Assembly: GCA_030603745.1 (NCBI GenBank)
Contig: JAUVXE010000011.1
Span: 1-64,000, forward strand
Length of the DNA stretch: 64,000 bases
Source: Coriobacteriia bacterium
GTDB taxonomy: Bacteria > Actinomycetota > Coriobacteriia > Anaerosomatales > SLCP01
Direction: 5' to 3'
In this document: piece after piece, positions 15,878-27,949 of the stretch
Position numbering within the stretch: the stretch's first letter is position 1
How the letters are laid out: each line of letters begins with the position of its first letter
Notes under the pieces: generated by a model
What the model was told of the DNA's origin: nothing
The model's database searches: none
Seen by the model: the letters and a program-made list of their open reading frames with translations, nothing else
Position numbers and translations under genes: made by a program

Positions 15878-15952
15878 TGGTGGGCCCGGCAGGATTCGAA
15901 CCTGCAACCAAGGGATTATGAGTCCCCTGCTCCACCATTGAGCTACGGGCCC
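15878..15952 (-). tRNA. tRNA with CAT anticodon, probably tRNA-Ile2 (lysidine type)
   Basis: Read on the minus strand, a full cloverleaf of 75 nt can be drawn: acceptor GGGCCCG/CGGGCCC, D-arm, anticodon loop CTCATAA, T-arm with GGTTCGAAT and encoded ACCA. The GACTCATAATC stem-loop and TTGGT variable loop look more like Ile2 than elongator Met, but the choice is not certain. The 5' 48 nt are duplicated at 27319-27366 by integration of the adjacent element. Confidence 0.93.
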
Positions 15953-15953
15953 C
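15905..15953. repeat. Left attachment site (49-bp core direct repeat)
   Basis: This 49-bp stretch is identical to 27319-27367 and in the same orientation; the flanking bases differ on both sides. It overlaps the 5' part of the CAT tRNA: acceptor 5' strand, D-arm, anticodon arm and start of the variable loop. The two copies bound the integrated element. Confidence 0.96.
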
Positions 15954-16066: not shown

Positions 16067-16479
16067 CCTAGCCCGCACGGCCCTGAGGGATGCGTCGCAC
16101 GGGCTTTCCAGGCGTCACGTTCGGCGGTTGCTCGGTCAAACTGCGAGCGTTCCCACCCTGCTATCTCCGCATCCTCCGTCAGCCGCTCCATCTCCTCGGC
16201 TTGGGCGGTGATGTGGGCGCGGAGGGTGGCTGCGTGTGCGCTCGTGCGCTCGTATCCGAATGCCTCGAAGTAGTCCAACGCCTCCTCCACCTCTGGCGGT
16301 AGTGAGGATGTGGGGGTGTCGGTGTGGAAGGGGTCGGGGCAATACCGCTGACCATACCTTGTCGCCTTCTCCCGCTCGGGTGGAAAGTCAACGGGGGACC
16401 ACCATTTGCCGTACGCAAGCTGCTTCCAGTACCGCACCTTCGGGTCGTCACTCCCACACGTCGGGCATCGGTCACTCAT
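16051..16479 (-). CDS. Small zinc-ribbon and coiled-coil phage protein
   Basis: About 142 aa from ATG at 16479 (or the adjacent ATG at 16482). The N-terminus MSDRCPTCGSDDPKV has a CxxC knuckle and a second cysteine follows in RYCPDPFHTD. A helical, charged second half (about residues 65-120) looks like a short coiled coil. The start overlaps the stop of the upstream gene (ATGATGAGTGA), so translation is coupled. Function unknown. Its stop codon lies inside the putative arm-site repeat. Confidence 0.65.
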   Translation of the reverse strand: MSDRCPTCGSDDPKVRYWKQLAYGKWWSPVDFPPEREKATRYGQRYCPDPFHTDTPTSSLPPEVEEALDYFEAFGYERTSAHAATLRAHITAQAEEMERLTEDAEIAGWERSQFDRATAERDAWKARATHPSGPCGLGMRAR

Positions 16480-16717
16480 CATGCATCCTCCACTCGACCT
16501 CCCACTCCACCTCCGGGCAGCGGTCGTCGTGAAACGCGCTCCACTTGTGGCACACGACCTCGCAACCCTCGCACGCCTCGGCGGGGACGCCGTGCTCCTC
16601 CCACTCGCGGTAGACCTCCTCGCGGATGTCGTCTGCGAGACCGTTGCCGGGCAGGTCGCACGAGCGCACGCCGGGAGGCAGGTTGTACTCGCTTCGCGGC
16701 AGGTAGATGTCACTCAT
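16472..16717 (-). CDS. Small cysteine-containing phage protein, unknown
   Basis: 81 aa, starting MSDIYLPRSEYNLPPGVRS after a strong AAGGAGG. It has a CEGCEVVCHKW cluster and a very acidic Trp-rich end (EVEWEVEWRMHDE). The cysteines suggest a small metal-binding fold. The start module AGGTATCCCGATGAGTGAC is identical to that of the next gene upstream. Function unknown. Confidence 0.65.
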   Translation of the reverse strand: MSDIYLPRSEYNLPPGVRSCDLPGNGLADDIREEVYREWEEHGVPAEACEGCEVVCHKWSAFHDDRCPEVEWEVEWRMHDE

Positions 16718-17202
16718 CGGGATACCTCCTTGAGTGCGGCGTCGAACCCTGGTAGTTCGCGGAAGCGAGGAGAGACGTACTTGTAGCCGCCGCGCTCGAT
16801 GATGCTTCCACCGTGCACATCGCCGAAGTCATTCCAGCAGTCATCGCAGATGACCTTGCCGTCAGGGGCGACCCGAAGGAACTTGATGCGGAAGATGGCT
16901 CCTTCCTCGGAGTGACACTGACACTCGCCCCACACAGCCGGATGCGAGACCGCCGCCTCCACGAGTGCCTGTACCTTCTCGGCTTCTACGAGGGAGCCGT
17001 CTGCGAGCTCATAGTTATCCTCGAAGAACCTCTTGGCGACGTACCATTGGTCTGCGGGATTGTCGGGGTTCCACGCGATCATGCCGCCTTCTTCCGGTGA
17101 GTCCTCGGCGTTCACGCTCACACCGGACAGATCTTCGCCAACGATGTAGGGGCGCATCGGCTGTAGCAGCTTCTTGCGGTAGAGTCGCTGTAGGTCACTC
17201 AT
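16714..17202 (-). CDS. Hypothetical phage protein with CxC/CxxC motifs
   Basis: About 162 aa from ATG at 17202 (MSDLQRLYRKKLLQPMRPY). The middle has HPAVWGECQCHSEEGAI followed by VICDDCWNDFGDVHGG, so four cysteines could bind zinc. The C-terminus ends EVSR, sharing its last codons with the upstream gene because both contain the same junction sequence. ATGA overlap with the HAD-like gene implies coupled translation. Function unknown. Confidence 0.65.
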   Translation of the reverse strand: MSDLQRLYRKKLLQPMRPYIVGEDLSGVSVNAEDSPEEGGMIAWNPDNPADQWYVAKRFFEDNYELADGSLVEAEKVQALVEAAVSHPAVWGECQCHSEEGAIFRIKFLRVAPDGKVICDDCWNDFGDVHGGSIIERGGYKYVSPRFRELPGFDAALKEVSR

Positions 17203-17753
17203 CGGGATACCTTCTTCACAGCTTCGAGGGATGCGTCGAGCCAGCCGTCCGACGAGTCCCATGTCGGCTGCTTTACCAAGCTCCCGCTCCTCGGGTCAGG
17301 GCCCTCGATCGGGATGTCCCCGGGTTGACCCACACGACCCACACGGAGCATCCTGGCTTCCCTCTCGCTGGCGAACAACACCGCAGGCTTGTGCGAGGGG
17401 GTCACCCCGTCAGCGCGGAGCCCGGTGTTGAAGATCACGCCGACCGCGCGATCGTCCCAGAGCTCCCGCATGTGCATGTCCTTCTTGTAGGTGACCCGGA
17501 GGGCCTGGCCGAGGTGCTCGAGGCACCACTTCTGGATCGCCAGGACACACTCCTCGAGCTCCTCGATGCTCGCCCTGTTGTCGGGACAGACGCGGGCCGT
17601 GAAGATCCGAACATCCTCCCCGGCCTCGAGCCAGCCCTTCACCCGGTCGAGCATGAGCGGGATCGGGTCACCGATCCTGGTGAGCCCGTCCCACCCGTGG
17701 TACTCGGCAAGGGTGCCGTCGAGATCTACGCCGATCCACCCCCCCGCGCTCAC
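17199..17753 (-). CDS. HAD-superfamily phosphatase-like protein
   Basis: The 184-aa protein begins with a GTG that overlaps the previous stop (GTGA). HAD motif I is WIGVDLDGTLAEY (nucleophile Asp and acid Asp+2), motif II is RIFTAR and motif IV is WDDRAVGVI. A cap insert is short, as in polynucleotide-kinase phosphatase domains and small phage HADs. It could remove phosphates from nucleotides or nucleic-acid ends. Co-location with RNA ligase RtcB is suggestive, but the substrate is unknown. Confidence 0.75.
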   Translation of the reverse strand: MSAGGWIGVDLDGTLAEYHGWDGLTRIGDPIPLMLDRVKGWLEAGEDVRIFTARVCPDNRASIEELEECVLAIQKWCLEHLGQALRVTYKKDMHMRELWDDRAVGVIFNTGLRADGVTPSHKPAVLFASEREARMLRVGRVGQPGDIPIEGPDPRSGSLVKQPTWDSSDGWLDASLEAVKKVSR

Positions 17754-17971
17754 GAGGACCTCGCGCTATTGCCGCCGATCCCCGCAAGGAGGAACGCGAG
17801 CACGCCAAGGACCTCTGCCCAGGGCGAGGGGACGGACAGAACGTTCAGGGCGAACCAGTACACGAGGTAGCCCCAGGCCACCCCGAGGCCCAAGAAGAAC
17901 AGGCCGGCCGCCACAATGAGCAGGAAGGCGACTACGACCACCAGCCCCCCGCTCGTTGCACTCTTGCTCAT
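17750..17971 (-). CDS. Small two-helix membrane protein
   Basis: 73 aa from the ATG at 17971, which overlaps the integrase stop (ATGA). Two hydrophobic helices (about residues 9-33 and 40-65) are separated by a short turn. There is no signal cleavage motif. Function unknown; holin-like, superinfection-exclusion and host-membrane roles are all possible. Confidence 0.6.
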   Translation of the reverse strand: MSKSATSGGLVVVVAFLLIVAAGLFFLGLGVAWGYLVYWFALNVLSVPSPWAEVLGVLAFLLAGIGGNSARSS

Positions 17972-19056
17972 ACTGCCTCTCTTTCCTGGCTCTCGTGCCA
18001 CGCATCCAGACGGCGGAGGATCGTGTCCTCGTCGTTCGGGATCAGGTGGCCGTAGATGTCCAGCGTCGTTGATGCGTTCTTGTGGCCCATCTGGGCCTGG
18101 ACGTACTTGACCGGGGCGCCCGCCGAGAGCGCCCACGTCGCGAACGTGTGCCGGAAGTCGTGGGCCGAGAAGCCCTCGATCCCGGCCGCCTCAAGCGCCG
18201 GGGCCAGCACACGGCGGAGGAAGTTGCGGCCGAGGAACCGGCCCCGCGGCGACGGGAACACGATCCCCTCACTCGAGGCGGGGCAGGCGAGCTTCCATCG
18301 CCGGAGCTCCCGGACTGCCACCTCGCTCAGGAGCACCGTCCGGCTCGACCCCTCCGTCTTGGGCCGGCAGAGGCCCGAGCCCTCGATGTGCTGGCGGTCC
18401 ACCGTGATCGTCCTGGCCTTGAGATCGACCCGATCCCAGGTGAGCCCGAAGATCTCTCCCCGCCTAAGCCCGATGTGGGGCCACACGAGGATGAGGGATC
18501 GGTATGCCTCGGGCACCGCGGCCACGAGCGCTCGGTGCTCCCTCGGCGTGAGGACCCGTACCCCTGTCCGGGGTATCCTGGGGGCCCTCACGCGATCTGA
18601 CGGGTCCACTTTCAGCCGCCCATCGTCCACCGCGCGCCTCAGGATGGCCTTGAGGGTGGTGAGGGTTCCCTTCACTGTGGAGGGCGCCTTGGTCCTCGAG
18701 AGCTCGGCCACGAAGGCCCGAACGTCCGCCTTGGTGAGGGACTGGACCGGCCGATGGGCACCGAAGTGCTCCTTGATGCGTCGAACGTGTGTTCGATATA
18801 TCTCGAGCGACCGCTCTCCGACGAGTGCGCTCTTGAGGTACTCGTCCGCGAGGGAGCCGAGCGAGGTGCTCTGCACCTTCTTCACTGGCTCCCCCGCGGA
18901 CAGGGCCAGCAGGGCCTCGGCCTCGGCCCGCTGTGCCTCCTTCTTCCGATCGAAGGTCCCGACCCACACCTCGCGAGACACGCCGTCGATTACGTGGCGG
19001 ACCTTCACCCGGTAGCGGGTCTTGCCGGCCTTCGTTGTGTACGACGAGATGGACAT
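17968..19056 (-). CDS. int: Tyrosine recombinase (phage integrase)
   Basis: The 362-aa integrase has an N-terminal AP2-like arm-binding domain (YRVKVRHVIDGVSREVWVG), a SAM-like core-binding domain (about residues 65-160) and a catalytic domain with GLRRGEI (Arg I), the beta-hairpin Lys region, HDFRHTFATW (His-x-x-Arg), MGHKN and the nucleophile in LDIYGHL. The start follows AAGGAGG. The arm-binding domain fits the paired boxes at both ends of the element. It would catalyse integration at the CAT tRNA. Confidence 0.96.
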   Translation of the reverse strand: MSISSYTTKAGKTRYRVKVRHVIDGVSREVWVGTFDRKKEAQRAEAEALLALSAGEPVKKVQSTSLGSLADEYLKSALVGERSLEIYRTHVRRIKEHFGAHRPVQSLTKADVRAFVAELSRTKAPSTVKGTLTTLKAILRRAVDDGRLKVDPSDRVRAPRIPRTGVRVLTPREHRALVAAVPEAYRSLILVWPHIGLRRGEIFGLTWDRVDLKARTITVDRQHIEGSGLCRPKTEGSSRTVLLSEVAVRELRRWKLACPASSEGIVFPSPRGRFLGRNFLRRVLAPALEAAGIEGFSAHDFRHTFATWALSAGAPVKYVQAQMGHKNASTTLDIYGHLIPNDEDTILRRLDAWHESQEREAV

Positions 19057-19106: not shown

Positions 19107-19286
19107 TCACGCGAGCGGCCTTGCTCTCAGCCACTCGCGCAAGTCCTCGACGTGTATGAGGAGCCGCTTCCTGCCAACCCGCCTGAACGGGATTCCGAGC
19201 TCGCGCCATGTCTCGCTGACCGTCTTGGAGTGCATCTTGAGGTAGTCTGCGACCTCATCAACACCCATGACCTCGGAGTGGGTCAC
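19107..19286 (-). CDS. Excisionase-like helix-turn-helix protein
   Basis: 59 aa from a GTG at 19286 that overlaps the preceding stop (GTGA). An HTH_17/AlpA-like domain reads MGVDEVADYLKMHSKTVSE then FRRVGRKRLLIHVEDLREWL, typical of small Xis or helper proteins. It lies 50 bp upstream of int on the same strand, the common xis-int arrangement. It may direct excision or regulate int. Confidence 0.85.
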   Translation of the reverse strand: MTHSEVMGVDEVADYLKMHSKTVSETWRELGIPFRRVGRKRLLIHVEDLREWLRARPLA

Positions 19287-19423
19287 GACACCCCCTCCCC
19301 CTGGTCGTACCGCTCGATTGCCTGGCCGAGCCGGAACACCTCGAGCGCGATAGAGAGGTCGCCAAGCGTGCACTCCCCGCAACACACGCCATGCCCGCAG
19401 CGCTCCGTCTCGATGTGCTCCAC
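19283..19423 (-). CDS. Small cysteine-rich protein between rtcB fragment and excisionase
   Basis: The C-terminal part of this frame looks real: ERCGHGVCCGECTLGDL carries four cysteines and it ends with a GTGA overlap with the excisionase gene. A GTG at 19423 preceded by GAGG is the best start (46 aa). The open frame extends to 19525 inside the RtcB fragment, so a longer form is possible. Function unknown. Confidence 0.45.
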   Translation of the reverse strand: MEHIETERCGHGVCCGECTLGDLSIALEVFRLGQAIERYDQGEGVS

Positions 19424-19461
19424 GATTGCCTCGACAAGCTGGGCGACGTGTGACGGCTCGG

Positions 19462-20144
19462 CTACCCCTTGAGTACCGCCATCGGGATAAGCCAGTCCTC
19501 CAGCTCGACCAGATCCTCCTGCCACGCCATCACCTCCTGGATGTCCTTGTACGCGAAGGGCAGCTCGTCAGCGACGGAGCCCGCCGAGATCACGGAGATC
19601 CCGCACTCCTTCATCCGCCGCATCCACTCAAGGACCTGATCGTCGCTACGCTTGGCCTGCCCGCGGCTCATCACCCTGCCGGCTCCGTGTGAGCAGGAGC
19701 CCCACGAGTCGGGGTTGTCGAGCCCGACGCCGACAGCCGTCGCCGTCCCCATCGAGCCGGGGATCGTGACGCGCCCACGCGCCCGCACCGCGCCCTTGCG
19801 GTGAACGATGCCGACGCTCCCGCCCCCGAGGCGCTCCTGGGCCGCGAAGTTGTGGCGGGTGTCGAACTCGTCGAGCTCGATCACGGAGGACCCGACGACC
19901 TTCTCGAGGGCCGAAACCGCTGAGGAGACGATGCGCTCCCGGTTGATCCGGGCCCACTTGACGCAGTAGTCCATCGCCGACCAGTAGTCGGCGAAGTCCT
20001 GGGTGCCGCGCATCAAGTACGTGATCCCCTCCCACTCATCGCCAGAACACTGATCGTAGAAGTCGCACACCCGCTTGCCGAGGTTGCGGCTCCCGGTGTG
20101 GACCGTGATCGCAACGTTGCCGCTCGAGAGCTCGCGCTGGATCT
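19462..20144 (-). pseudogene. rtcB: RNA ligase RtcB, C-terminal fragment
   Basis: About 226 codons encode the C-terminal two thirds of RtcB: VHTGSRNLGKRV, HNFAAQE, VHRKGAVRA (the GMP-accepting His region), IPGSMGTATAV and SCSHGAGRVMSR. The frame is open upstream only to a TAA near 20166, with no good start. The N-terminal half lies at 25451-25907 on the opposite strand. Both halves share AGATCC at their broken ends, and joining there restores FVEI-QRELSSGNVAITVHTG in frame. Confidence 0.9.
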
Positions 20145-20317
20145 GATCGAGCGAGGGAGGTGATTACTGCTACTACCACGGAAAGGTCCTGACCGGCCTC
20201 ATGGCCGTCACCGGACCAGACGGGCTTGCGAGCCCCGTCGCGAACCTGATCCACAGGAGGACCAAGCAGGTCCTCCACACCCCGGCGCCTGAGCCCACCC
20301 CGGACTCGGACGAGTAA
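20145..20317 (+). pseudogene. 5'-truncated small phage gene (CYYHGK protein)
   Basis: The frame reads SSEGGDYCYYHGKVLTGL and continues to a TAA at 20315-20317, ending in an acidic tail PEPTPDSDE. A Cys/Tyr/His motif of this kind occurs in small phage zinc proteins. No start codon with a ribosome site precedes it, and it begins at the same place where the rtcB C-terminal half is broken, so its 5' end was probably lost. A short form from ATG 20201 is possible but has no ribosome site. Confidence 0.55.
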
Positions 20318-20333
20318 CCACCACAGAAGGCCA
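20316..20333 (+). repeat. Leader repeat AACCACCACAGAAGGCCA, copy 1
   Basis: This 18-bp sequence is identical at 21147-21164, and its first 10 bases recur at 25427-25436. Each copy lies 14-29 bp upstream of a start codon. It may be an operator, an mRNA leader element or a recombination remnant. Confidence 0.7.
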
Positions 20334-20358
20334 GCTCGAACAAACAGGAGGATCACAC

Positions 20359-20880
20359 TTGGCGCACTACGGAGCACCGCCCAAGACGGAGTACAAGGTT
20401 CTGCCCCCGGACGTGTATGAGGCCGCCATTACCGGGATCGAGGAGATCGAGAACGTATTCTACAACCCGGTCAACGACGACCCCAAGAAGGCCACGCAGC
20501 TCAAGTGGACCGCGAAGGTCCGTGAGCCGGGCTCGGAGGGCGTCACCCTCACGATGTTCTCCGGGGCCTACTTCTCCCGGCACAAGCGCAACAAGCTCGC
20601 CAACTGGTGTCGGGTCCTGGACCCCGCCTTCGACATCGACGTGTGCTACTCCTCGGAGGAGGAGTTCCGCTCGAAGATGATCGGCGCCCCCTTCCGGGTC
20701 GCGGTCAAGAACAAGGAGGTCGAGAAGGACGGGGAGACGAGGGTGTACAACGAGGCGGCCGGCGACCTCCTCCCCTCCAAGCTCTCGCCGCTGACGAAGG
20801 AGGAGCTCGACGCGATCCTGCTCGAGAGTCTCGGGGCCACCCCCGTCGCGCAGGGTGGCGGGGGCGAGATCCCCTTCTAG
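20359..20880 (+). CDS. Phage single-stranded DNA-binding-like protein
   Basis: About 173 aa from a TTG at 20359 with GGAGGA 8 bases upstream. The body reads like an OB-fold type phage protein (VYEAAITGIEEIENVF, LKWTAKVREPGSEGVTLTMF, APFRVAVKNKEVEKDG). It ends with GGGGEIPF, very like the acidic DDIPF tip of SSB that recruits partners. It is the first gene of the rightward replication module, upstream of a nuclease and a DnaB-like helicase. The SSB assignment is inferred from the tail and context. Confidence 0.65.
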   Translation: MAHYGAPPKTEYKVLPPDVYEAAITGIEEIENVFYNPVNDDPKKATQLKWTAKVREPGSEGVTLTMFSGAYFSRHKRNKLANWCRVLDPAFDIDVCYSSEEEFRSKMIGAPFRVAVKNKEVEKDGETRVYNEAAGDLLPSKLSPLTKEELDAILLESLGATPVAQGGGGEIPF

Positions 20881-20921
20881 GCGACCCACGCCGGGCCCGG
20901 CTGTCGAGAAGGAGGACATGA

Positions 20922-21077
20922 ATGGCAGGCCAGAGAGCCAAGGAGGATTGCATCCAGGGGCTATTGTGCCGCTACTGGATGCGCTGCCCGGCCGGACGGA
21001 ATGTCGCGAAGTGCCTGCGGCTCCTCTCGCGGGCCGACTTCCAGGGGATCGATTTCGATCCCGAGGAAGTGGGCTGA
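20922..21077 (+). CDS. 51-aa cysteine-containing phage microprotein
   Basis: ATG at 20922 follows AAGGAGG. The peptide starts MAGQRAKEDCIQGLLCRYW and continues with CPAGRNVAKCLRLLSRADF to an acidic end. Four cysteines (positions 10, 16, 22 and 31) could bind a metal. The spacing and ribosome site make it a better candidate than the overlapping longer frame. Function unknown. Confidence 0.6.
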   Translation: MAGQRAKEDCIQGLLCRYWMRCPAGRNVAKCLRLLSRADFQGIDFDPEEVG

Positions 21078-21146
21078 CCGCGCCGGAAAGTGGTGGGGCT
21101 CCTCGGGTTGCACCCCGGGGAGCCCCTGCACCCAGGTCCTATCGCC

Positions 21147-21164
21147 AACCACCACAGAAGGCCA
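21147..21164 (+). repeat. Leader repeat AACCACCACAGAAGGCCA, copy 2
   Basis: Identical to 20316-20333, 29 bp upstream of the TTG-started gene at 21194. The surrounding 21078-21193 stretch otherwise holds no gene. Confidence 0.7.
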
Positions 21165-21193
21165 CCCTGAACGGGTGAGTGTAGGGAGGATGC

Positions 21194-21499
21194 TTGAACA
21201 TTGTCGCATATCAGGCGGATGAGTTCATCCGCTTGGCAGAAGAAACGTTTGTGCGCCGTTACGGGCCCGTGCCGGAACGGTTGATCGTGGACCTCCCGCC
21301 GGGCAAGGAGGAGCGGCCCTCGTATCCGCTGGGCACGAAGGTATGCTCCTGTTGCGGGGCGCCGTCTGGCCGGAAGGTGCGGCTGGACGGGCTCAACTAC
21401 TACTGCAAGAAGCCGGAGTGCCGGAGGGCCGAGTACCATCATCGGTACTCCGACTCGCAGGCGCGGACGGGTGGCCTGCCCGTCGTGGTGCTCCAGTGA
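21194..21499 (+). CDS. Zinc-ribbon phage protein, unknown
   Basis: 101 aa from a TTG at 21194 preceded by GGGAGGA. The second half has VCSCCGAPSGRKVRLDGLN followed by YYCKKPECRRAEYHHRY, a CxC/C..CxxxxC zinc-ribbon pattern. The stop overlaps the next start (GTGA). It may be a small DNA-binding or recombination accessory factor; function not recognised. Confidence 0.7.
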   Translation: MNIVAYQADEFIRLAEETFVRRYGPVPERLIVDLPPGKEERPSYPLGTKVCSCCGAPSGRKVRLDGLNYYCKKPECRRAEYHHRYSDSQARTGGLPVVVLQ

Positions 21500-22320
21500 C
21501 GACGCCCGCACAGGCCCGCCAGACGAGCATCGGCCGGGTCTACGAGCAAGAGGGCAGGGACGTTCAGTTCTTGTCGGTCACCACGGCGCTCCAGGCACTC
21601 CCGAAGGATGCGCTCATGTATTGGGCCGCCCGCGAGGTCGCGGGAGTCGCGGTCGAGATCATCGAGGGGCGGGCGCCCCTGCCGGTCGGGGCGGATGGCG
21701 AGCCGTTGGCAGGCGACGATCTCCACAAGTGGCTCAAGACGGAGCCGCTTCGGCAGCGAGACAGCGCCGGCAACATTGGCGACCTGGTTCACGGGTACGC
21801 CGAGGACTTCATGCGTGCCGGCCTGACGGTCGAGGAGATGCACGAGAAGCTCGAGGCGATCGAGGACAAGAAGGTCAGGGCTCGCGTCAAGCAGTTCGTC
21901 CAGTGGGTCGAGGACTTCCGGGTGGAGCCGATCGCCGTCGAGGTCACGATCTACAACGACGAGCACGGGTACGCCGGGTCATGCGACCTGATCGCCCACG
22001 TCCCCGGATACGGGGTGGTGCTCGTGGACCTCAAGACGAGCAAGGGCATCTACGGCTCGGTGGCGCTCCAGGCGATCGCCTACGCCCGTGGGGAGTACAT
22101 CCTGACCGACGAAGGGGAGCGACTCAAGCTCCCTGAGATCAACATGAGTGCAGTCCTGCACATCAAGGCCCGTTCCTACGTGTTCCGCAAGCTGGACGCA
22201 AGTGACGAGTGCTTCGAGCACTTCGTTCATCTCCTGCACACCAAGCGAGAGATCCTGCCAGCGCTTGATGGCCGGCTCCTCCATCGGATTGAGCCGGGGG
22301 TGAGGGCGTTTGGCGGTTGA
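21496..22320 (+). CDS. PD-(D/E)XK nuclease family protein (RecB/Cas4/phage exonuclease fold)
   Basis: 274 aa from a GTG at 21496 coupled to the preceding gene. The nuclease core is seen in AVEVTIYNDEHGYAGSCDLI (E...GxxD) and VVLVDLKTSKG (D-x-K), followed by ALQAIAYARGEY, the Q-x-x-x-Y motif of RecB-type nucleases. Similar phage proteins act as 5' exonucleases in recombination. Its place between an SSB-like protein and a helicase fits replication or recombination of the element's DNA. Confidence 0.85.
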   Translation: MTTPAQARQTSIGRVYEQEGRDVQFLSVTTALQALPKDALMYWAAREVAGVAVEIIEGRAPLPVGADGEPLAGDDLHKWLKTEPLRQRDSAGNIGDLVHGYAEDFMRAGLTVEEMHEKLEAIEDKKVRARVKQFVQWVEDFRVEPIAVEVTIYNDEHGYAGSCDLIAHVPGYGVVLVDLKTSKGIYGSVALQAIAYARGEYILTDEGERLKLPEINMSAVLHIKARSYVFRKLDASDECFEHFVHLLHTKREILPALDGRLLHRIEPGVRAFGG

Positions 22321-23743
22321 GCAGGTCAGGGTGCCGCCTCATAGCATCGAGGCGGAGCAGAGCGTCCTTGGCTCAGTGATTCTTAACCCATTCCTGCTTG
22401 ACGAGGTTGGCCAGATCATCCGAGCCGAGGACTTCTACCGCCCCGGGCACGGACAGATCTTCGAGGCGGTCACCGAGCTCCGCGAGATGGGGCATGAGAT
22501 CGACCTGATCTCGGTCGCAAGCAAGCTCGAGGACCGGAAGGCGCTCGAGGCGGTCGGGGGGCGCGGGTACCTGCTCGAGCTCTCGGGCGTGGTCCCAAGT
22601 TCCACGAACGCGACGCGCTACGCGAAGATCGTAAGGGAGCGTGCGCTGTACCGTCGCCTGGTCCAGATCGGGAGCGAGATCTCCACCCTTGGGTACGAGT
22701 CGTCCGGGAACATCGAGGACGACCTTGGTCAGGCAACGTCGCTCGTGATGGGTGTCTCGATCGCTGGGCAGAAGCAGGCCCTCCCGGTCGCTACCGTGTG
22801 GGATCAGCTCCTCAAGGAGCTCAGGAGCGGTCCGGCTAACTACATCAGCCCGCCACACCTCCCGAAGGTGCACGCGCGGCCTGGCGCCCTCGTGGTCCTG
22901 GCGGCCGGCACGTCGGTCGGCAAGACGGCGGTCGCGCTCGACTGGACTGACGCCTGGGCTGGGACCATGCAGACCTGGACGGCGTTCCTCGAGTACGAGA
23001 TGAGCGAAGTGAGTCTCGTCTCCCGCCTGGCCTCGAAGCACTCCGGGATCTCGATGGTCCGCATGGAGGAGGGGCTGTCTGAGGCCGAGCTTGCGCTGGT
23101 GGAGTCGGCCGGCGAGCGCGTCCGGCGCCACCGGCTCCTGGTCGAGGCGGTCACCTCGGACGTGGGGGCGCTCTTTGCCAAGATTCGCCACGCCGCCTCG
23201 AAGGGGTGCTCAGTGGTCGTGGTGGATCACTTGGGACTGATCCCGTTTCGGGTCCCCCGCGGCATGAATCATGCCAAGGCGGTCGGGACGGAAGTCACCA
23301 ACAAGCTCAAGCGGCTTGCGAACGACCTCGGGATTGTGATCGTCCTGCTGTGCCAGGTGAACCGGGAGGGGCAGAAGCGCATCGGCCCCAACCCGTGGGT
23401 CACGAAGAATGACCTGCGAGACAGCGGCGAGATCGAGCAGGATGCCGACATTATCATCGGCCTGAACCGGATCTCTCGGGAGGACGATGAGGCCCTGTTC
23501 CTTCGCGTGTGCGACGACATCGGGATCGACCCCTACGAGGTGGATACCGACATCATGCGCTACGGGGTTCTCAAGAACCGCAACGGCCCTCTGTTCCACA
23601 AGTACCTCGGCTTTGCCGGGGAGTCCATGTCCTTCTACGACCTGTTTGCGCCAAGATCGCTGGCCCCAAGGGCTGAGCCTGAGCCAGAGGTGCAGCCCCC
23701 TCCGGCAGAGCAGATCTCGATGATGGCGCCAGGAGAGGAGTGA
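22310..23743 (+). CDS. DnaB-like replicative helicase
   Basis: 477 aa from a TTG at 22310 overlapping the nuclease gene by 11 bp. The N-terminal DnaB domain begins VPPHSIEAEQSVLGSVILN. The RecA-like motor has Walker A AAGTSVGKTA, Walker B SVVVVDHLGLI, then LKRLANDLGIVIVLLCQVNR and the SGEIEQDADIIIGLNR motif before the C-terminal end. It would unwind DNA at the element's replication fork. Presence of its own helicase implies autonomous replication when excised. Confidence 0.93.
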   Translation: MAVEQVRVPPHSIEAEQSVLGSVILNPFLLDEVGQIIRAEDFYRPGHGQIFEAVTELREMGHEIDLISVASKLEDRKALEAVGGRGYLLELSGVVPSSTNATRYAKIVRERALYRRLVQIGSEISTLGYESSGNIEDDLGQATSLVMGVSIAGQKQALPVATVWDQLLKELRSGPANYISPPHLPKVHARPGALVVLAAGTSVGKTAVALDWTDAWAGTMQTWTAFLEYEMSEVSLVSRLASKHSGISMVRMEEGLSEAELALVESAGERVRRHRLLVEAVTSDVGALFAKIRHAASKGCSVVVVDHLGLIPFRVPRGMNHAKAVGTEVTNKLKRLANDLGIVIVLLCQVNREGQKRIGPNPWVTKNDLRDSGEIEQDADIIIGLNRISREDDEALFLRVCDDIGIDPYEVDTDIMRYGVLKNRNGPLFHKYLGFAGESMSFYDLFAPRSLAPRAEPEPEVQPPPAEQISMMAPGEE

Positions 23744-23746
23744 GAA

Positions 23747-24118
23747 GTGCATCATCATACGCCGTTTCCCACGCTTTCACATGCCGACTTCCCGGTCGCG
23801 ACGGGCCGTGACGAGCCCAAGATGGTGCGGATGTTCCGCGAGGCGACCGGGAAGATGGCCGGCACCTTCGCGGCCAAGAACGCCGACTACGGCAACTCGT
23901 TCGTGGACCTGTTCGAGCTCTACGAACGGGAGCTCGGGAAGGGTAAGGGCGACCTTGCGATCCTCCCGCGCATCCTGGACAAGGCCGGGCGGATCGAGAA
24001 CCTGACCCTTCGGGCTAACGCTCAGGTCAAGGATGAGAGTGTCGCCGACACCTATCTCGACCTGGCCTGCTACGCCCTCATGGGCTACCTGGCGATCACC
24101 AAGCTCCGCGATGGGTAA
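23747..24118 (+). CDS. Nucleotide modification-associated domain 1-like protein
   Basis: 123 aa from a GTG at 23747 after GAGGAG. The core FAAKNADYGNSFVDLFELY, then ILPRILDKAGRIENLT and SVADTYLDLACYALMGY, matches the small all-helical Nmad1/DUF1599 group related to MazG-type enzymes. Family members occur in phage replication modules and are thought to act in nucleotide metabolism. It overlaps the following nuclease gene by 8 bp. Confidence 0.78.
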   Translation: MHHHTPFPTLSHADFPVATGRDEPKMVRMFREATGKMAGTFAAKNADYGNSFVDLFELYERELGKGKGDLAILPRILDKAGRIENLTLRANAQVKDESVADTYLDLACYALMGYLAITKLRDG

Positions 24119-24524
24119 CTCGAAGGGCAACGCGGGCGAGCGGGGGGCCAAGGAGCTACTCGAGTCCCTCGGGTGGCTCGTCGCGGACAAGGAAACCTCC
24201 GGCCTGGCCGGGGACGACCTGTTCGCCAGGAGCCCCGAGGGCGTCTGGTACTCGATCGAAGTGAAGCATGTGCAGAGTCTCCAGCCAGCGCACGAGAAGC
24301 AGGCCCGCAGGCAGGCGGCGGAGCGCGAGGCCGCAATCCTTGAGGCCCGCAGGGCCCCGCGCCAGTCGATCGTCAAGAGTCTCGACATTGCATACGACAA
24401 GAGGCATTGGCTCCTGATGTGGAGGCCCTCGGGGTTCCGGGTGGGATCTCAGTGGGTCGTGCTCAGGGGCAACGGACGCAACAACAGGATCGAGGTGTGG
24501 GATTGCGAGGCAAGTCAGGACTGA
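24111..24524 (+). CDS. Holliday-junction resolvase-like endonuclease
   Basis: 137 aa from the ATG at 24111. The pattern NAGERGAKELLESLGWLV followed by SGLAGDDLFARSPEGVWYSIEVKHVQ gives the E...D...E-x-K core of an Hjc/VRR-NUC-type PD-(D/E)XK nuclease. A basic helix (EKQARRQAAEREAAILEARR) follows. It would resolve branched DNA made during replication or recombination of the element. Confidence 0.75.
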   Translation: MGNSKGNAGERGAKELLESLGWLVADKETSGLAGDDLFARSPEGVWYSIEVKHVQSLQPAHEKQARRQAAEREAAILEARRAPRQSIVKSLDIAYDKRHWLLMWRPSGFRVGSQWVVLRGNGRNNRIEVWDCEASQD

Positions 24525-24739
24525 GGCGGCCCCGGACCGAGAGGCGGGGCGACCGGGTGGTCAGGGTGTGGGACCCGTCCACGTTCTTCCAGGTCAGCGA
24601 GTACCGCCGGGCGCGTAAGAGCCCTGCATCACTCGAGCTCGAGGGGCTGAGGTACCGCCCCCTGAGCCGCGAGGAGGCGCGGATCGAGCTCTCGAAGGGG
24701 CGCTCGCTACTCCGCGGTTTCGCCGGGGCTACTGCATGA
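24503..24739 (+). CDS. Small basic phage protein, unknown
   Basis: About 78 aa from a TTG at 24503 (GAGG 7 bases upstream); GTG 24497 is an alternative. It starts with a strongly basic stretch (RGKSGLRRPRTERRGDRVVR) and continues WDPSTFFQVSEYRRARKSPA. It overlaps the resolvase-like gene by 22 bp and the next microgene by 4 bp (ATGA). The charge suggests nucleic-acid contact. Function unknown. Confidence 0.5.
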   Translation: MRGKSGLRRPRTERRGDRVVRVWDPSTFFQVSEYRRARKSPASLELEGLRYRPLSREEARIELSKGRSLLRGFAGATA

Positions 24740-24810
24740 GGGAGTGCGCTGCGTGCGGAGAGGCGTACCCGGCCTCGGAGAAGTGTTGCCCCTGGTGCGG
24801 GGGGACTTGA
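24736..24810 (+). CDS. 24-aa zinc-ribbon microprotein
   Basis: The peptide MRECAACGEAYPASEKCCPW is followed by CGGT and a TGA stop. The CxxC...CCxxC arrangement is a complete zinc knuckle. Its ATG overlaps the upstream stop (ATGA), consistent with coupled translation. Similar tiny zinc ribbons can be adaptor or DNA-binding peptides. No family assignment is possible by eye. Confidence 0.5.
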   Translation: MRECAACGEAYPASEKCCPWCGGT

Positions 24811-24857
24811 GGATAGTCGGAGAGGGGCGCGTGCCGCCCCGGAAGTCAGGAGAGTGA

Positions 24858-25274
24858 ATGAGCGAGAAGATGAAGATCACCACCGAGCGGGTGCGCCTGC
24901 TCTCGCAGAAGGGCGGAGAGCCGCTCCTCGCCACGAGGTTCTGGATCATGGAGAGCGGGAAGGGCTGGCTCATCACGGACGGCGGACGATTTATGCCAGA
25001 CACTCGGGGCTACATCGCGCAGCCGATCCGCCCCGAGGGGTTCGCCCTGAACCTCCAGACCGCAAAGCGGATGATCCTTCGCGGGGTTGTGCGGGAGGTC
25101 AAGGCGCAGTTCGGCCTCCTCGTGGCTGGGATCGCCGCCCACTTCCGCCGCGCCGCGGAGAGCGTGCTTGCGGAGTACCACTTCTGGCGTGACCGAATCG
25201 AGCATTGGGGCGCCCTCTTGGAGCAGGAGCTCGTCGAGGCACAGGCCGTCGAGATCGTCCTGGAGCAGCGGTAA
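24858..25274 (+). CDS. Hypothetical phage protein
   Basis: 138 aa from an ATG at 24858 with AGGAGAG upstream. N-terminal half is beta-like (RFWIMESGKGWLITDGGRF), the C-terminal half is helical (VKAQFGLLVAGIAAHFRRAA then LLEQELVEAQAVEIVLEQR). No motif recognised. It ends with a TAATG overlap with the next small gene. Confidence 0.65.
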   Translation: MSEKMKITTERVRLLSQKGGEPLLATRFWIMESGKGWLITDGGRFMPDTRGYIAQPIRPEGFALNLQTAKRMILRGVVREVKAQFGLLVAGIAAHFRRAAESVLAEYHFWRDRIEHWGALLEQELVEAQAVEIVLEQR

Positions 25275-25405
25275 TGCGGGCCTGCCGGCGCCACTCGATC
25301 GGCGCGTGCCAGCGATGCCCCATGACGGGGCGCGACCGCAAGCTGTCCACCCGGACCAAGGTCGTGTGGACCAACTGCCGGGGCGAGGTCATTCGTCGTC
25401 CGTGA
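25274..25405 (+). CDS. 43-aa Cys/His phage microprotein
   Basis: ATG at 25274 overlaps the preceding stop (TAATG). The peptide begins MRACRRHSIGACQRCPMTGR and has a fourth cysteine in WTNCRGEV, giving a possible C-x(8)-C-x2-C zinc site, and is strongly basic. Function unknown. Confidence 0.5.
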   Translation: MRACRRHSIGACQRCPMTGRDRKLSTRTKVVWTNCRGEVIRRP

Positions 25406-25450
25406 GCGGCCCGAGAGTGCAAGTCCAACCACCACAAGGAGGGACTGAGT

Positions 25451-25945
25451 ATGCTTGAGTTTGTGAAGTCATGGAGTCCGAGGCTCGACGTGGCGGCGGC
25501 CGACCAGGTGGGGCACTTCATACGGTTCCCCCACCTCGTTGACCTGTGCCTCATGGCGGACGCCCATCCCGGATATGGGGTGCCGGTCGGAAGCGTCCTG
25601 GTCACCGAGGAGTGCGTCGTCCCCAGCGCGATCGGCGTAGACATCGGGTGTGGGGTGAGGACCGTGGTTCTCGACCTCTCAGCCGACGACATCGGACACG
25701 AGGTCGCGGCAAACTGTCTCCGCGAGCTTTCGGAGCGCCTGCCGGTGGGCTTCAATGTCCACGGGGACGACTTCCCCCCCTACGACATGCGACTGATCGA
25801 GGCCCCCGAGGGCGTCGAGCGCGTGATCGACGGCCTGTGTCTCGACGAGGGGAGGATCGCTCGCCAGCTCGGCACCCTCGGCGGGGGCAACCACTTCGTC
25901 GAGATCCCGAGTACGCGGAGTCACCAAACTGGCAGCACGGCATGA
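25451..25945 (+). pseudogene. rtcB: RNA ligase RtcB, N-terminal fragment
   Basis: The start follows AAGGAGGG and a partial copy of the leader repeat. About 152 codons match the RtcB N-terminus: LMADAHPGYGVPVGSVL, SAIGVDIGCGVRT (metal-binding Cys) and LGTLGGGNHFVEI. After AGATCC at 25902-25907 the frame loses similarity and stops at 25945. The missing part is at 20144-19462 on the minus strand. Intact RtcB joins 2',3'-cyclic phosphate and 5'-OH RNA ends; this half alone lacks the GMP-accepting His. Confidence 0.92.
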
Positions 25946-26046
25946 CCATCATCACGAAGCGGATCGATTCCGATCGCTTCCACCTCGAGCAGGTCCCCAT
26001 CGTCGGGTACGAGGCCCTGTTCAACGACACGCTGTACAGCGGTTAG
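25908..26046 (+). pseudogene. 5'-truncated gene fragment downstream of the rtcB breakpoint
   Basis: A frame different from rtcB reads EYAESPNWQHGMTIITKR and ends VGYEALFNDTLYSG at a TAG. It looks like the end of a phage protein, but a 34-aa protein from the ATG at 25942 cannot be excluded; that ATG has no ribosome site. Its 5' end is lost exactly where RtcB is broken. Confidence 0.45.
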
Positions 26047-26053
26047 GAGGACC

Positions 26054-26770
26054 ATGAAGATCACGCCCGTAAGCCACGAGTGGAGCGGCTCGCTCGCCCG
26101 TCGCTCCGGCGCCCCCACGGGGGTTGTCGTCCACCACGCAGCTCACCCTAGATGTGGGGCGGCCACGATCCACGGGTGGCACATCGCGCGGAAGTGGAAG
26201 GGCATCGGCTACCACTTCGTCGTCCGCAAGGATGGCACGATCGAGACGGGCCGGCCCGAGTGGGCAATCGGCTCGCACACCATGAGCGTCAACAGCCGGA
26301 TCGGCGTATGCCTCGAGGGCAACTTCGAGACGGAGGTACCCCTGGCAGCACAGCTCGCAGCCCTCGCGTGGCTCATCCATGTGTACCTTGCAGGCAAGTA
26401 CGGCAAGCTCGTCGTGACCCGCCACAGGGACCATGCGGCGACCTCGTGCCCCGGCAAGAACCTCCCGTGGCCCATCCAGGCCGCTCCTGCGGCCCCTGCG
26501 GCGCCCAGCCGGCCTCAGCCCGCTCCGGCCACCAAGCCCGCCCCTGCGCGCCCCACGCGGCGCGAGGGAGCCAGGAAAGACGCGCATGTCCGGGAGATCC
26601 AGCGGCGCCTGAACGTGAAGCGCGCTCGGGACGGCCGGGGCAGGGCCCTGGTTGTGGACGGCGACTTCGGCCCGCGCACCAAGGAGGCCGTGATGAGCTT
26701 CCAGAGGGCCCAGAAGATCGGCATTGACGGCGTGGTCGGCCCCGAGACGTGGGCCCGACTCTTGCGGTAG
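26054..26770 (+). CDS. N-acetylmuramoyl-L-alanine amidase endolysin with peptidoglycan-binding domain
   Basis: 238 aa, start after AGGAGG. The N-terminal Amidase_2/PGRP domain has zinc ligands in GVVVHHAAHP and the RHRDHAATSCPGK segment, plus GYHFVVRKDGTIETGR. A Pro/Ala linker (about residues 140-170) leads to a PG_binding_1 domain (VREIQRRLN, VVDGDFGPRTKEAVMSFQ, GIDGVVGPETW). It would degrade host peptidoglycan at lysis. Its holin partner follows 11 bp later. Confidence 0.94.
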   Translation: MKITPVSHEWSGSLARRSGAPTGVVVHHAAHPRCGAATIHGWHIARKWKGIGYHFVVRKDGTIETGRPEWAIGSHTMSVNSRIGVCLEGNFETEVPLAAQLAALAWLIHVYLAGKYGKLVVTRHRDHAATSCPGKNLPWPIQAAPAAPAAPSRPQPAPATKPAPARPTRREGARKDAHVREIQRRLNVKRARDGRGRALVVDGDFGPRTKEAVMSFQRAQKIGIDGVVGPETWARLLR

Positions 26771-26780
26771 GGAGGACCCC

Positions 26781-27053
26781 TTGTATCAGTACGCCTTCAC
26801 CATCGCTCTGCGCGCTGCCGTGCGTACCCTGTTCCAGGGTGCGGCCGGCGCCTTCACGGCGGTGACGGTCACCATCCTGTCCGTTGAGGACCTTCGCGTC
26901 CAGTCGCTCGTGATCGGGGCCGGGCTCCTTCACGCCGGCCTCACGGCCGTGGCGGCCTTCTGCCAGAACTTCTCCGAGGCCCTCAAGGACGAGAGGGACC
27001 GCGAGCGCGAGGCCCCCGACGAGCTCCCGTTCGAGCCCTACGATTACCTCTAG
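26781..27053 (+). CDS. Putative phage holin
   Basis: 90 aa from a TTG at 26781 with GGGAGGA upstream. It has a basic/aromatic N-terminus, two hydrophobic stretches (about residues 14-32 and 38-62) and a charged C-terminal tail (EALKDERDREREAPDELPF), the layout of r1t-type holins. Placement directly after an endolysin supports the call. No signal peptide is present on the endolysin, so a holin would be needed for its release. Confidence 0.75.
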   Translation: MYQYAFTIALRAAVRTLFQGAAGAFTAVTVTILSVEDLRVQSLVIGAGLLHAGLTAVAAFCQNFSEALKDERDREREAPDELPFEPYDYL

Positions 27054-27318: not shown

Positions 27319-27366
27319 CAACCAAGGGATTATGAGTCCCCTGCTCCACCATTGAGCTACGGGCCC
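27319..27366 (-). pseudogene. Truncated CAT tRNA (5' part) at the right junction
   Basis: The minus-strand sequence keeps the acceptor 5' strand, D-arm and anticodon arm but lacks the T-arm and CCA end. Upstream on the minus strand, TATCAT at 27398-27393 could be the -10 box of the original tRNA promoter; it matches the -10 of the tRNA-Asn gene. If so, the native promoter now drives this dead fragment. Confidence 0.75.
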
Positions 27367-27367
27367 C
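27319..27367. repeat. Right attachment site (49-bp core direct repeat)
   Basis: Identical to 15905-15953. This copy holds only the 5' 48 nt of the CAT tRNA; the T-arm and 3' acceptor are missing, so it is not a functional tRNA. Confidence 0.96.
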
Positions 27368-27872: not shown

Positions 27873-27949
27873 CCACCCTCGTGCGCTCCGGTGACGCGAC
27901 CACCCTCGTGCGCTCCGGTGACGCGACCACCCTCGTGCGATCCGGTGTG
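27873..27949. repeat. 27-bp tandem repeat (about 2.9 copies)
   Basis: Units start at 27873, 27900 and 27927 with CCACCCTCGTGCGCTCCGGT; the third has one substitution. No spacers. Lies in non-coding DNA upstream of the tRNA-Asn promoter. Confidence 0.85.

Follow-up and report, generated by a model that had tools for sequence, protein, structure and literature searches.

A small prophage in the analysed window, a 64,000-nucleotide stretch of Coriobacteriia bacterium DNA, carries its gene for the RNA ligase RtcB as two halves on opposite strands, as seen in the ORF list and the Pfam matches (Table 1). The original prediction had placed an N-terminal half on the plus strand ending at 25907 and a C-terminal half on the minus strand starting at 20144, and both the ORFs and their PF01139 matches agree. 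Absent from that prediction is a further broken gene across each junction, here called ORF B (junction 1) and ORF D (junction 2). We consider it most probable, at roughly 60%, that this is a defective prophage in which the replication block was inverted and all DNA between B and D was lost. The findings thus point to a one-off inversion with deletion, or to a chimeric assembly, rather than to a genetic switch.

Table 1. Features of the prophage element and its two junctions (positions are those of the window).
Feature	Positions	Strand	Basis
att copy in the 5' half of tRNA-Met (gene 15878-15952, -)	15905..15953	.	49-bp perfect direct repeat; tRNA by ARAGORN
Three small ORFs, leftward arm	16475..17753	-	ORF list
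Third leftward-arm ORF	17202-17753	-	Weak PHROG matches: phage sugar-phosphate/polynucleotide kinase families
Tyrosine integrase	17968..19056	-	PF00589, E=2.9e-27
Small HTH_17 protein, excisionase-like	19107..19385	-	PF12728, E=7.1e-9; role assigned from position
Small ORF, overlaps the rtcB C half at its 3' end	19283..19525	-	ORF coordinates; no Pfam match
rtcB, C-terminal half	19462..20144	-	PF01139 model 175-426, E=1.7e-51 (match spans 20142-19465)
Junction 1 hexamer AGATCC (GGATCT on +)	20139..20144	-	
ORF B, 5'-truncated at junction 1	20145..20318	+	Translation; best codon-usage frame
173-aa protein	20359..20880	+	No Pfam or PHROG match
Exonuclease, Cas4-like	21499..22320	+	PHROG 298, E=9.1e-32
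DnaB-type replicative helicase	22310..23743	+	PF03796/PF00772
DUF1599 nucleotide-modification-associated protein	23747..24118	+	PF07659, E=3.9e-8
Possible nuclease/resolvase-like ORF	24111..24524	+	Look of sequence only; no Pfam or PHROG match
rtcB, N-terminal half	25451..25907	+	PF01139 model 3-160, E=1.9e-24 (match spans 25451-25942)
Junction 2 hexamer AGATCC	25902..25907	+	
ORF D, 5'-truncated at junction 2, directly 5' of lysis genes	25908..26046	+	Translation; best codon-usage frame
N-acetylmuramoyl-L-alanine amidase with peptidoglycan-binding domain (endolysin)	26054..26770	+	PF01510, PF01471
Small holin-like protein	26784..27053	+	PHROG 4316, E=0.0012 (function-unknown family); holin role assigned from position
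Second att copy, identical	27319..27367	.	49 bp; repeat search

The element is 11.4 kb long and is integrated in a tRNA-Met gene between perfect 49-bp direct att repeats. This placement, together with a PF00589 integrase, identifies it as an integrated prophage or phage-derived element. Among the ORFs tested against Pfam and PHROGs, no terminase, portal, capsid, or tail genes were recognised; the element is not a complete prophage, and is probably a defective one. It resembles defective (cryptic) prophages with internal deletions, in that the att repeats and integrase are intact and replication and lysis genes are kept while virion genes are missing. Unlike in ordinary cryptic prophages, the scar includes an inverted block that begins inside rtcB. 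Apart from rtcB, B, and D, every ORF in the element is undamaged. The overlap of the small ORF at 19283 with the rtcB C half suggests an operon running from rtcB through this ORF to xis and int. For the 173-aa protein, its position prompts the guess that it binds single-stranded DNA.

The att duplication extends over the 5' half of the tRNA-Met gene to past the anticodon, so that after integration the 5' end of this gene is contributed by the element; most elements that target tRNA genes restore the 3' end instead. Just beyond the element, at 27880-27945, short tandem repeats of approximately CCACCCTCGTGCGCTCCGGTGACGCGA were seen by eye.

The two halves of rtcB fit together with essentially nothing missing. 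Their PF01139 matches adjoin in model coordinates, and when 25451-25901 is followed by the reverse-complemented 19465-20144, a single open frame of 377 aa results, close to the uninterrupted protein of about 380 aa that had been predicted. By tblastn, the joined protein matched many phage RtcBs as one piece, with 99% query coverage and 33-36% identity, and it could be aligned over its whole length with RtcBs from phages and hosts. In an alignment with 3 phage RtcBs and those of 4 relatives, the gap near the split (GGGNHFVEI|QRELSSGN...HTGSRNLG) was at most one residue, which indicates that essentially no rtcB sequence was lost. The joined protein resembles the RtcBs of Cronobacter phage GAP52, Rhodococcus phage Grayson, and Corynebacterium phage Dina (approximately 33-36% identical) in its full length and in the motifs DIGCG, GGGNHF, HxGSR, and HGAGR. 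Unlike in those phages, the gene here lies in two opposed halves that would be unable to make the enzyme: the N half carries DIGCG and GGGNHF, the C half HTGSR and HGAGR, and a single-chain, full-length RtcB is obtained only from the joined sequence. Measured by half, the RtcBs of the 4 relatives compared are 31-44% identical to that of the prophage.

As they stand, neither half is predicted from its sequence to be functional by itself. Stops lie just upstream of the C half, whose earliest in-frame start is a GTG at 20070, past the HTGSR motif, so the C half alone could not work. The frame of the N half runs on to 25945, adding 12 unrelated residues. That two separate genes here supply the halves of a functional, two-piece RtcB is thus hardly conceivable, even though both halves are otherwise undamaged.

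The hexamer AGATCC is present at both broken ends, as had been predicted; its equal reading phase, also cited then, is no independent finding, because both hexamers occupy the identical place in the gene. The homology between the two rtcB breakpoints amounts to these 6 bp only and does not extend past AGATCC in either direction.

On the other side of junction 1, ORF B (...GGDYCYYHGKVLTGLM...) reaches a stop by 20318 and has no credible start, and junction 1 itself creates a TGA at 20144-20146 in frame with it. Beyond junction 2, ORF D (...EYAESPNWQHGMTIITKRI...) reaches a stop by 26046 and has no start bearing a clear ribosome-binding site, as judged by eye. Codon usage was scored in all six frames after training on the other genes of the element; on this scale, true genes scored 0.26 ± 0.12 and wrong frames -0.34 ± 0.27. 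The frame of ORF B was the best at 0.137 (the others ranged from -0.06 to -0.49), approximately 1 s.d. below true genes, and that of ORF D was the best of its six at 0.352. Since no homologues of either ORF were detected in the collections searched, their truncation is read from frame, start codons, and codon usage.

It had been predicted that flipping 20144-25902 would restore the gene. After a simple inversion, both sites would be expected to make sense once the segment is turned back. This holds for rtcB, but not for the other side of both junctions: the flip places B and D back to back, diverging, and both remain without 5' ends. Such a headless, back-to-back pair looks like the signature of a deletion between B and D. 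Of the rearrangement reading, the inverted segment is therefore well supported, while the B/D side of the breakpoints calls for an added deletion.

From these features, we infer the ancestral layout, the deletion and its size, and the occurrence of the event in the cell. In the putative ancestor, a leftward early operon would have run from B through the 173-aa protein, the exonuclease, dnaB, and further genes to rtcB, the small ORF, xis, and int, towards one att site, while rightward late genes would have closed with D, the amidase, and the holin at the opposite att site. A single rearrangement may then have broken rtcB at AGATCC, with loss of the DNA from mid-B to mid-D, which presumably held the packaging and virion genes, and reinsertion of the 5.76-kb block from rtcB to B in reverse. 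This would leave rtcB, B, and D all broken. The presence of AGATCC on both sides could stem from rtcB and D having matched over 6 bp at junction 2, or from a 6-nt fill-in duplication; as the T of GGATCT at 20144 makes the TGA in B, that base should derive from rtcB rather than from B. The junctions would be the product of end joining or template switching, and not of site-specific recombination. Because the deletion scar coincides with the inversion breakpoint, one event is likelier than two, and the undamaged state of the remaining ORFs means that, if real, it must have been recent.

In favour of an inversion with deletion, the rtcB halves fit without loss, the C half overlaps the next leftward ORF, B and D are both the best codon-usage frames from the junction onward, and an att-bounded element carries no recognised packaging or virion gene. 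Against it, searches of phage, viral, and class, phylum, and order genome sequences yielded no intact relative with the ancestral layout; with no relatives of B, D, or the whole element found, this layout is reconstructed from a single sequence.

The strongest rival, which we regard as possible although distinctly less probable, is that amplification of the whole genome, library preparation, or assembly created both junctions, and that the real prophage is longer and has an intact rtcB. Over 85% of published MDA chimeras are inverted and have lost the sequence in between; as a rule their joints lie at short complementary stretches of 2-21 bp, especially between segments less than 10 kb apart (PMC1855051). 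The junctions described here, with their inverted form, intervening loss, 6-bp match, and distance of 5.8 kb, resemble these closely, and since the other ORFs of the element are open, a genuine break would have to be very recent. Unlike MDA chimeras, however, the element shows two consistent joints in one assembled contig, so that two separate inverted junctions in one molecule would be required to regain the same locus. In addition, at 98.5% completeness and with 28 contigs, the genome does not resemble what single-cell MDA typically yields, and amplification is not known to have been used here.

A fixed, simple two-breakpoint inversion from AGATCC to GGATCT with no deletion is unlikely. It would account for the exact restoration of rtcB and for the 6-bp inverted repeat at both breakpoints. 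On flipping, however, B keeps its in-frame TGA and has no start, D runs into the antisense of B, and the absence of virion genes is left unaccounted for. In the flipped arrangement the frame of D is open across the antisense of B (codon score -0.07), with a possible GTG start, which leaves slight room for an intact D and hence gives simple inversion its small probability.

Of the three options in the original prediction, a fixed rearrangement and an assembly error are both still plausible; the third, an invertible switch, is not supported by the present evidence. Such a switch would toggle a phage RNA-repair ligase by flipping the replication block back and forth at a site of only 6 bp, with the integrase of the element or a different recombinase as the possible driver, and we judge this very improbable. 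Gin/Cin-type invertible phage segments are inverted blocks inside a prophage that end within a gene. The block described here does likewise, and its reading frame rejoins exactly at a short inverted repeat. Unlike in those segments, however, no invertase or recombination sites were found, and a flip restores one junction only. No serine invertase or second recombinase was recognised in the element with Pfam and PHROGs, the sole recognised recombinase being the tyrosine integrase, whose att sites lie elsewhere. The breakpoints share 6 bp and no extended inverted repeat, against the approximately 20 bp or more expected of the inverted recombination sites of a serine invertase. A split RtcB was seen in none of the 8 family relatives examined, and the searches brought up no relative with the block the other way round. 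Insertion of a transposon that duplicated a 6-bp target was also considered; this reading was dropped because the element yielded no identifiable transposase and the two ends are, by eye, unlike terminal repeats.

The relatives with an intact rtcB in a matching replication module, with which a comparison had been proposed, did not turn up, as no usable close relative of the element was found. Megablast of the element against phages returned a tRNA-Asn match only. Viral contigs queried with RtcB, DnaB, the 173-aa protein, the amidase, B (D was too short to be included), and a CYYHGKV motif again gave no usable close relative; two matches to the motif proved to be unrelated DNA. No relative of the element came from genome contigs queried with RtcB and DnaB, nor from whole genomes at the level of class, phylum, and order, and the latter had none of B or D. 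The only yield of the whole genomes was one distant relative of the 173-aa protein (37-39% identity), whose gene lies immediately 3' of a primase-like one within a different prophage-like region (L017).

Apart from the two halves of the broken prophage copy, the genome holds no piece of an RtcB, while in 7 of the 8 family relatives all parts of RtcB lie on a single strand. Should the junctions be real, this genome would be without a working rtcB where 7 of 8 family relatives have one. The split of a gene in a probably defective prophage is in itself fairly ordinary. It does call for caution, as a gene made whole by flipping mimics a switch, and it is the far sides of the breakpoints that reveal the apparent deletion scar.

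Within the inverted block, AACCACCAC recurs at 20316, 21147, and 25427, in each case upstream of a gene, possibly as a phage-specific intergenic signal; as it is confined to the plus strand of this block, it is uninformative on the original orientation. Neither a second copy of the element nor its missing virion genes were found elsewhere in the genome, whose portal and TerL matches lie only on contig C7. As the region that holds them has its own integrase, they were assigned to a separate prophage-like region. This larger region (C7:123664-153844; L015, L016) encodes an integrase-like protein, TerL, a portal protein, a ClpP-like protease, and a long tape-measure-like protein.
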